A DNA stretch of 64,000 nt from Bacteroidota bacterium. Lineage in GTDB: Bacteria > Bacteroidota > Bacteroidia > Bacteroidales > F082. The notes under the pieces were generated by a model. The model made no database searches. It was given only the letters and a program-made list of their open reading frames with translations, and was not told the DNA's origin. The stretch spans positions 62,001-126,000 of the forward strand of contig JAHLLA010000005.1 of assembly GCA_020444415.1 (NCBI GenBank). The letters run 5' to 3'. The position numbers were made by a program, and so were the translations under genes. Below, one piece after another: positions 49,327 through 51,724 of this stretch; position 1 is the first letter of the stretch, and every line of letters starts with the position of its first letter.

Positions 49327-50631
49327 TTACAAATTAAAAGCAGCCTTAAATTTTTCTACTTCGTCCAGCTTTTCCCAGGCAAAAAATTGTACCTTTTTCA
49401 GGTATATCGGCTGACCATCTGCATCTATTTTTTTAATACTTTCCTCAGCCTCATAACGCAGTTCAACTACTGCTTCAAATGGTTCACGGCCAAAATGCCC
49501 ATAATTGGATGTCTTTTGGAAGATCGGATTTTTGAGCCCGAATCGTTTAACAATCTGATATGGTGTCATATCATAAATTTCAGACATCTTTTTTGCAATT
49601 TCACCATCTGTTAATGTCTTTCCTGAATTGTCAGAAACTTTAGCGGTTCCGTGGGTGTTGATATAAAAACCAACGGGTTTGGCTACACCAATGGCATAAG
49701 CAACCTGTACGAGAATACGGTCAGCAATACCTGCTGCTACCATGTTTTTTGCCAGGTGACGTGCTGCATAAGCCGCTGATCTATCCACCTTTGATGAATC
49801 TTTCCCTGAGAAAGCGCCACCGCCATGCGCTCCGTGACCGCCATAGGTGTCAACAATAATTTTACGGCCAGTTAAACCAGTATCTCCATGAGGGCCGCCG
49901 ATAACGAACTTGCCGGTTGGATTTACCAATAATTTGTAATTGTGATTGAATAATTCCCTGACACTATCCGGATACGATGCCTTTACTTTTGGAATGATGT
50001 ACCGTTCCACATCAGCTTTAATGGTATTCTGCATTTCTTTCTCTGAAGTAAAATCGTCATGTTGGGTAGAAATAACGATGGTGTCAATCTTTAATGGCTG
50101 ATCGTGGTCATCATACTCTATAGTCACCTGCGATTTTGAATCGGGCCTCAGGTACTTCATTACTTTACCTTCTTTTCTTACCCTGGCCATCTCAAAAAGA
50201 ATATCATGGGAAAGTTCGGATGTCAGTGGCATAAAGTTTTCTGTTTCCTTACATGCGTAGCCAAACATCATTCCCTGGTCGCCGGCACCCTGGTTTTCGT
50301 CTGATTCGCGTACAACACCCTGCCTGATATCTGATGATTGCTCATGAATGGCAGATAACACAGAACAGGAATCGGCATCAAAACGATATGCGGCTTTTGT
50401 GTAGCCAATGCTTTTTATAACTTCCCTGGCTGTCTTCTCCAGGTCAACATATGCATTTGATTTTACTTCACCTGATAGGAATGCTAAGCCTGTTGTTACA
50501 AGCGTTTCACAAGCTACTTTTGATTCAGGGTCTTGTTTGAGCATTTCGTCTAAAATAGCATCTGAAATTTGATCTGAAACCTTATCAGGATGTCCTTCTG
50601 ATACGGATTCGGATGTAAATAAATATGACAT
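49327..50631 (-). CDS. metK: S-adenosylmethionine synthetase
   Basis: A 434-residue enzyme making SAM from methionine and ATP. The start [12 protein letters not shown] is the ATP/Met site. [12 protein letters not shown] and the loop [16 protein letters not shown] are the two signatures. Length is typical for this phylum (slightly longer than E. coli). Upstream is a 178-bp gap whose minus-strand transcript forms a structured leader. Confidence 0.97.
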
Positions 50632-50663
50632 AATAAATCTTTTTTATGAAGTGAAGGAGAGAA

Positions 50664-50766
50664 AGATTGATCGGTGGGCTAAAAATTGCTTTAGCATTTT
50701 TTTAGGTGGTTGCAATCAATCAAATCTGTCCACAATTTTTGTCCTGAAATCAGGATGTGCAAAAAT
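50664..50766 (-). promoter_or_regulatory. metK leader: promoter and structured 5' UTR, riboswitch-like
   Basis: On the minus strand, TATTTTTG (50759-50766) is a perfect -7 box. The predicted transcript start near 50755 is followed by hairpin TCCTGA-TT-TCAGGA (50741-50754). Next is a 7-bp outer stem GATTGAT/ATCAATC (50714-50720 with 50664-50670) enclosing a long hairpin at 50678-50704 (stem CTAAAAA..TGC/GCA.TTTTTAG, loop TAAA). An asymmetric internal loop with A-C-C-A-C and C-C-A-C-C sides lies between them. I do not recognise a SAM-I or SAM-II core. No later terminator is evident, so translation control is more likely. Confidence 0.5.
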
Positions 50767-50809
50767 AAATAAATATGTAATATGAATAAATAAAAATGGG
50801 AAATATCAG

Positions 50810-51724
50810 CTATTGTTTGGTGAGCCTTCGAAATACGTCTTCCATTTTTAGTTCGCTTTGCGACAAGGAGAGTACATTGTATTTATGAGCAACCGCGAAT
50901 TTAAAAATATCCTCACGAATGTCTTTTTTACCTTCTGTTTCAATCAGCCATGTGTTTCCCGACAATTTTTCAATTTTTGTAACATGTTGTATGTTACGTA
51001 TCAACTTCTCAGGAACATCTTCTTTAAATTCGACACGAAATTGTAAATTGTTGATCGATAATCCGGATAAATTACGGGTGGAGTCATCGGCTACAATTTT
51101 GCCCTGGTCGATAATAATCACCCGGTCGCAAATGGCCTCCACTTCCTGCATGATGTGGGTGGAAAGAATAACGGTTTTTTCCTTTCCCAGATCGGTAATA
51201 ATCTTTCTGATATCCACGATCTGGTTCGGGTCAAGCCCTGAGGTAGGTTCATCCAAAATGAGAATCTCCGGATCATGGATCAATGCCTGCGCCAAACCCA
51301 CCCGCTGGCGGTATCCTTTTGAAAGGGCACCGATTTTTTTGTGTGATTCTTTATCCAATCCGGTGAGTCTGATAGTGTTTGAAACGGTTTTGTCAACAGG
51401 CAGATTTAATTTGTACATATTGAATACAAAACGCAGGTATTCCTTTACATACATATCATGGTACAGGGGATTGTGTTCCGGTAAATAACCGATCAGTTGT
51501 TTTATTTTCAACGCATCTTCCTGTACATCAAAGCCATTGATGCTGGCCGTGCCGAAAGTAGGTGTCAGAAAAGAGGTTAAAATTTTCATGAGGGTGGATT
51601 TTCCGGCACCGTTTGGTCCTAATAATCCCACCACTTCACCTTTGTCAACCTGCAGGCTAACATGGTCCAATGCTTTTTGCCCGCCATAAAATTTTGAAAT
51701 GTCATTTACTTTCACCTGTCCCAT
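50810..51724 (-). CDS. gldA: ABC transporter ATP-binding protein GldA
   Basis: A 304-residue cytoplasmic ATPase resembling GldA of the GldAFG transporter required for gliding in Flavobacterium. Walker A G-P-N-G-A-G-K-S-T is near residue 37, the signature is L-S-K-G-Y-R-Q-R, and Walker B is L-I-L-D-E-P-T-S-G-L-D-P. The C-terminal ~80 residues form the domain seen in GldA. GldF and GldG are not adjacent. Many non-gliding Bacteroidota also carry this protein, so motility cannot be concluded from it. Confidence 0.88.
   Translation of the reverse strand: MGQVKVNDISKFYGGQKALDHVSLQVDKGEVVGLLGPNGAGKSTLMKILTSFLTPTFGTASINGFDVQEDALKIKQLIGYLPEHNPLYHDMYVKEYLRFVFNMYKLNLPVDKTVSNTIRLTGLDKESHKKIGALSKGYRQRVGLAQALIHDPEILILDEPTSGLDPNQIVDIRKIITDLGKEKTVILSTHIMQEVEAICDRVIIIDQGKIVADDSTRNLSGLSINNLQFRVEFKEDVPEKLIRNIQHVTKIEKLSGNTWLIETEGKKDIREDIFKFAVAHKYNVLSLSQSELKMEDVFRRLTKQ

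Follow-up and report, generated by a model that had tools for sequence, protein, structure and literature searches.

The metK leader in the window, i.e. the whole analysed stretch of 64,000 nucleotides of DNA from a Bacteroidota bacterium, is very probably a SAM-II riboswitch of the family RF01726 giving feedback control of S-adenosylmethionine (SAM) synthetase. The aptamer class was assigned by a covariance model and the gene context was seen directly, while SAM binding by this copy is predicted from its sequence. Both the riboswitch class and its setting are known; the class was missed in the initial annotation, where the leader was described as a structured and possibly SAM-responsive element of a less known class or as a protein-bound leader. 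The element left unplaced there can now be named, and the striking hairpin that had been drawn in it is most likely the alternative, SAM-free shape of the SAM-II switch, a competing state and not a new class. The features of the leader and its gene are as follows:

50760..50767 (-): -7-type promoter box TATTTTTG, read from the sequence
50742..50755 (-): 5' hairpin UCCUG-AUUU-CAGGA by the presumed transcript start, from the fold
50681..50739 (-): SAM-II aptamer (RF01726), from the covariance-model match and alignment
50730..50733 (-): P1 5' strand GUGG, from the RF01726 alignment
50706..50709 (-): P1 3' strand CCAC, from the RF01726 alignment
50711..50719 (-): 5' strand of the P2 pseudoknot, UUGAUUGCA, from its alignment position, the pairing being assigned by hand
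50686..50696 (-): P2 3' strand UGCUAAAGCAA, from the alignment and hand assignment
50713..50721 (-): aptamer segment GAUUGAUUG taken up by the competitor, from the minimum free energy (MFE) fold
50679..50705 (-): inner hairpin of the predicted SAM-free fold, 50705-50699/50685-50679 and 50696-50694/50689-50687
50665..50673 (-): competitor (anti-aptamer) strand CGAUCAAUC, from pair probabilities and a word conserved in relatives
50656..50662 (-): distal competitor UCU.UCC, from MFE helices with AGA 50727-50725 and GGA 50731-50729
50636..50668 (-): candidate start-proximal helix AAUCUUU (50668-50662)/AAAGAUU (50642-50636), by reading
49327..50631 (-): metK (S-adenosylmethionine synthetase), 434 aa, from the open reading frame list

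In a cmscan search of the whole window RF01726 (SAM-II, "long loops") matched positions 50739-50681 of the minus strand with 71.2 bits and an E-value of 8.8e-12, the cut-off being 44 bits, and the alignment was full length (model positions 1-60). One pair at the end of P1 and one inner pair are non-standard and there is one deletion; the rest agrees with the model. This was the only RF01726 match found in the genome. It adjoins metK on the upstream side, the gene starting 50 nt past its end with AUGUCA, and the leader as a whole lies on the minus strand between the TATTTTTG box (50767-50760) and the metK start (50631). From the search with metK, 80 relatives were kept, 58-70 % identical in the best segment, and of five listed plasmid places three carry a metK annotation. 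A SAM-responsive element upstream of metK, as initially proposed, is thus supported by the covariance-model match. The accompanying statement that neither a SAM-I nor a SAM-II core was present held for SAM-I (RF00162), for which the metK leader gave no covariance-model match, but was wrong for SAM-II, found at 50739-50681.

The P1 stem is of the GUGG/CCAC type (50733-50730/50709-50706) and shows one compensated change among 39 same-family leaders, GAGG with CCUC in leader L176. The P2 pairing in the window was assigned by hand after what we take to be the SAM-II structure. Partner words for P2 were counted in leaders with a 14-nt loop strand as the word after GCUAAA+1. CAA was present in 62 of 92 leaders with TTG and in 1 of 40 with CTG, as expected, whereas CAG was present in 10 of the 40 CTG leaders and 14 of the 92 TTG leaders (p 0.22), many CTG leaders having other words. 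Across the family of the window the aptamer sequence is near-invariant.

With RF01726 the leader shares a full-length match, while its long anti-aptamer and 5' hairpins lie partly outside the model. With the alphaproteobacterial SAM-II riboswitches (RF00521; S. meliloti metA and metZ, PMC9373788; original description PMC1273637) it shares a P1 stem and a P2 pseudoknot preceding a SAM or methionine gene and a predicted OFF action, although RF00521 itself scored only 12.3 bits on the window leader, below its cut-off of 36. The alphaproteobacterial elements are described with a terminator or a hidden Shine-Dalgarno site; no terminator was found in the window leader. According to PMC6847099, PMC9976891 and PMC3155529, Shine-Dalgarno sites are not used by Bacteroidia, and repression by concealing such a site, as in other SAM-II elements, is therefore inapplicable. 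By reading, 50696-50631 contains no such site along the 3' border of the aptamer, and the start codon lies 50 nt on. Since Bacteroidia ribosomes do without Shine-Dalgarno sites, the way in which riboswitches of this phylum repress translation is not obvious. The leader is noteworthy for its Shine-Dalgarno-free platform and otherwise ordinary. SAM/SAH (RF01727) and SAM-Chlorobi (RF01724) elements likewise lie upstream of metK (PMC2864571, accessible part); neither had a match in the window at the gathering score, and both were absent from the eight matches up to E 10 at 50400-51000.

RF01726 matches were found in 88 of 100 same-family genomes and in 197 of 295 same-order genomes (195 above the cut-off), this genome being included in both counts. 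A class-wide draw gave matches in 44 of 295 genomes, 38 of them above the cut-off, this genome and some of the same order included. A second match in genome G076 (L205), with 30.6 bits, was below the cut-off and looked spurious. Table 1 of PMC2864571 assigns 'SAM-II long loops' to Bacteroidetes and to marine samples, and Bacteroides thetaiotaomicron is among the organisms in a figure legend of PMC1273637. Judged by these two entries, the class and the phylum were therefore already known and metK is the expected gene. The supplement of PMC2864571, which treats SAM-II, excepted, no description of a Bacteroidetes SAM-II expression platform was found among the open-access papers that the searches listed.

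A structured leader upstream of metK had been reported from the sequence, and it is indeed present on the minus strand: the segment 50755-50600 folds at -27.1 kcal/mol (z -2.69), and 2 of 200 shuffles were equally good. Its MFE structure is a long hairpin composed of a 9-bp helix, the inner hairpin and two outer 3-bp helices. The 9-bp helix, 50721-50713/50673-50665, pairs GAUUGAUUG with CGAUCAAUC including one G-U pair, and its three tested pairs had probabilities of 0.994-0.999 in the pseudoknot-free ensemble. The perfect 7-bp closing stem of the initial annotation exists within this helix, at 50721-50715/50671-50665; the strands given for it, 50714-50720 (ATTGATT) and 50664-50670 (TCAATCT), cannot pair as they stand. 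The long inner hairpin, placed at 50678-50704, likewise exists with its ends slightly off, its helices being those listed above.

The long hairpin excludes the SAM-II fold because it uses both strands of P2 as well as the 5' side of P1. When growing transcripts were folded, with programs that ignore pseudoknots and hence in the SAM-free state only, the P1 fold was the MFE structure until the competitor had been transcribed, after which the long hairpin won. Displacement of one fold by a later-emerging strand is the usual two-state riboswitch architecture. The drawn structure is accordingly real and conserved, as a proponent of a new SAM-sensing class or a protein-bound leader would expect, but it is a competing fold incompatible with the aptamer and not a new aptamer. 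A full-length SAM-II match above the family cut-off, which the drawn hairpin overlaps and excludes, contradicts that proposal, and we regard it as extremely improbable.

The conservation of the competing fold was assessed on leaders from 207 loci, taken mostly best-score first from the family, order and class-wide matches listed; weak matches are under-represented because of this sampling and because the order-wide matches were only partly listed. Nine loci were dropped, five without an aptamer under the pattern used and four without a recognised metK start, leaving 198 leaders, and 29 more were dropped for redundancy over 90 % or a leader length outside 25-160, leaving 169 non-redundant leaders. 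Of the 43 non-redundant leaders from the same family that lie outside genus g14, the alignment (A1) includes the 39 with a leader length of at most 80. The leader statistics do not take kinship into account. One family leader (L057) also stands in the 'other families' group of the CAATC comparison, which leaves the quoted figures unaffected.

Of 50 non-redundant leaders from the window's family, 44 have the word CAATC 3' of the aptamer, where shuffles would give 5.5, and it sits 13-25 nt past GCUAAA. In the 39 aligned leaders the CAATC block is near-invariant within an otherwise drifting region. Across the 169 leaders, with kinship ignored, TGATTG was accompanied by CAATCA in 66 of 130 leaders, and CAATCA occurred in 3 of the 39 leaders lacking TGATTG (p 5.6e-7), as compared with 2 and 2 for the reversed control word. 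These p values are uncorrected for the 36 words tried, of which 8 gave p<0.05 and 28 did not, only TGATTG and GATTGA being far below. CAGTC was present in 6 of 17 leaders with GACTG and in 13 of 152 without. CAATCA fades beyond the order (2 of 17 leaders). In a control set of named genomes, which overlaps the main set in some identical contigs and is weak for distant taxa, it was present in 5 of 23 leaders with TGATTG, 0 of 19 without it and 3 of 38 without a pattern-recognised aptamer.

The 5' half of the aptamer was complementary to the downstream leader at z<-2 against shuffles in 79 of the 169 leaders, compared with 8 for the 60 nt upstream and 2 for early coding sequence. A genome's own leader also outpaired those of other genomes, with a mean rank of 0.33 for the loop strand and 0.30 for the whole aptamer 5' half. 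For the inner helix the same swap gave a mean rank of 0.37, and 74 leaders fell in the best quarter as against 21 in the worst; against shuffles the signal of this helix was weaker (median z -0.30, z<-1 in 48 and z>1 in 16 of the 169 leaders). The outer part of the hairpin, in the P1 region, showed no clear covariation (swap mean rank 0.47). The outer GGAAA/UUUCC helix was considered as a covarying part and rejected, TTTCC being present in 41 of 89 leaders with GGAAA and 30 of 80 without (p 0.28). RNAalifold on the 39 same-family leaders returned the four P1 pairs as the only consensus pairs, a result that competition between two folds can produce if the 5' strand does not vary.

At least eight competitor pairs were possible in 162 of 169 real leaders and in 1095 of 1690 shuffled ones. 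That shuffled leaders still often pair with the aptamer strand would suit a degenerate aptamer with a hairpin arising by chance from sticky sequence, yet the near-invariance of the aptamer in the family and a competitor word at eight times the shuffle expectation make this very unlikely. Taken together, the simple check of conservation and compensatory change by word counts, swap tests and alignment left the structure standing. The competing helix exists and, by these comparisons, is conserved. Judged by the CAATC and CAATCA/TGATTG counts, the alternative fold has the appearance of an expression platform under selection, and it offers a conserved competitor strand with defined nucleotides for mutation.

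SAM is the product of MetK, and a switch turned OFF by SAM is therefore the expected logic. The aptamer would be transcribed before the competitor strand. With SAM bound, the P1/P2 pseudoknot would persist and the competitor strand would stay free, turning metK OFF. In the absence of SAM, CGAUCAAUC, emerging about 16 nt past the GCUAAA core, would invade the P2 5' strand of the aptamer, so that the extended anti-aptamer hairpin forms and metK is ON. In this genome the last step of repression might be access of Rho to the C-rich strand once it is free, or else translation might be reduced. We infer both the direction of control and the final step.

As to that final step, one possibility, which we hold to be rather doubtful, is that the freed UUCCC-type strand sequesters the start codon by pairing with AUGGGA at the metK start, a mode of repression for which no Shine-Dalgarno site is needed. 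TCCC was found in the leaders of 41 of 73 genes with GGN as codon 2 and of 29 of 96 others, and in the GGN class (n=73) a leader's own start region paired better than those from other genes (mean rank 0.36; best quarter 29, worst quarter 9). In the 169 leaders, opening of the start was costlier with the real than with the shuffled freed strand (z>1 in 53, z<-1 in 13), and it was costlier by more than 1 kcal/mol in 81 leaders in the freed state and in 8 in the full fold. However, the association of codon 2 with TCCC is confounded by lineage, the shuffle test in the GGN class was weak (26 of 73 had z<-1, and so had 20 of 73 in the coding control), and mean start accessibility was nearly equal in the two states (0.50 and 0.49). 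The metK of the window, moreover, begins AUGUCA, and the class with TCN as codon 2 (n=48) had no excess pairing (median z 0.38). The data would thus lend weak support to start-codon pairing in AUGGGN lineages and none for the AUGUCN start type of the window. The helix AAUCUUU/AAAGAUU was considered as a general sequestor and discarded; it is absent from the MFE structure of the freed strand and, by reading, is not kept in the same-genus leaders L169 and L022.

Alternatively, SAM may free a C-rich, G-poor strand for loading of Rho, a strand which the hairpin would hide without SAM; this, too, seems to us possible and not probable. Consistent with it, C is twice as frequent as G in the 169 leaders (0.198 and 0.097), the metK leader ranks second among the 48 gene leaders in the window by its highest C-minus-G 40-nt stretch, and terminator-like sites are near absent (2 of 169 leaders). 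C richness is, however, also expected from the need to pair with a G-bearing aptamer strand. Intrinsic termination, with the freed strand as the 5' arm of a terminator, is clear in leader L160, where the freed AAUCUCUCC arm is complementary to GGAGAGAUU of the aptamer, and a terminator-like hairpin occurs in L128 as well. For the window it is highly improbable: a hairpin and U run between aptamer and gene were not found in its leader (L001) nor in 167 of the 169 leaders, and shuffled leaders gave terminator-like sites in 2 of 507. L160 and L128 are metK leaders from one other family of the same order, with the terminator-like hairpin past the aptamer. In L160 the competitor strand doubles as the 5' arm of this hairpin, as one would expect of a switch turned OFF by SAM.

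Tentatively, and short of calling it likely, we propose a Bacteroidales-type platform that works without a Shine-Dalgarno site. A mimic strand (CAAUCA, then UUUCC) would either invade the aptamer or, freed by SAM, block the metK start in AUGGG lineages or open a Rho site in others, and in the family of the window a 5'-terminal hairpin of free sequence would be added.

At the 5' end, the -7 box claimed before the leader was confirmed by reading TATTTTTG at 50767-50760, its assignment as a -7-type box depending on the consensus, which we take to be TAnnTTTG. A loose pattern of the box matched all 43 non-redundant same-family leaders outside g14, which is weak evidence alone because the pattern is loose. 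The 5' hairpin, placed at 50741-50754 in the initial annotation, exists with a small shift (50755-50751/50746-50742). In 34 of the 43 same-family leaders outside g14 the corresponding 5' segment folds at -2.5 kcal/mol or better, with a median z of -1.91 and z<-1 in 32 of 43, as against 0 of 7 g14 leaders and 3 of 114 leaders from other families. This contrast is chiefly one of length, because the segment in g14 and other families is mostly too short for a hairpin, the median distance from box to P1 being 25 nt in the same family outside g14, 13 in g14 and 11 in other families. By reading, the hairpin sequences in the same family outside g14 vary freely while the pairing is kept. The simplest guess is that the hairpin protects the 5' end of the transcript.

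Some further variants were observed. In leader L204 (genome G078; L224 is the same contig) the metK start codon is only 4 nt past the GCUAAA core, and there is therefore no room for a competitor strand; here the ribosome site may lie partly within the aptamer. Two aptamers of the same class from outside the order carry an extra hairpin-capable stretch, after P1 in L084 and within the L1 loop in L087. SAM-I (S box, RF00162), which has the same ligand and a different aptamer, has one match elsewhere in the genome of the window, on contig C20 at 4-86 of the minus strand (locus L208, 1-86). It lies near a gene read as ahcY, in divergent orientation, and its own gene lies beyond the contig end. By hand tally, 58 of 100 family genomes have both SAM-II and SAM-I; in the accessible part of PMC2258182 (2007) no species with both classes is reported. 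At the SAM-I loci of the ten best-scoring relatives (L209-L218) the next gene, judged by the N-terminus only, is metH-like in four and resembles a PLP-dependent enzyme of methionine synthesis in six.
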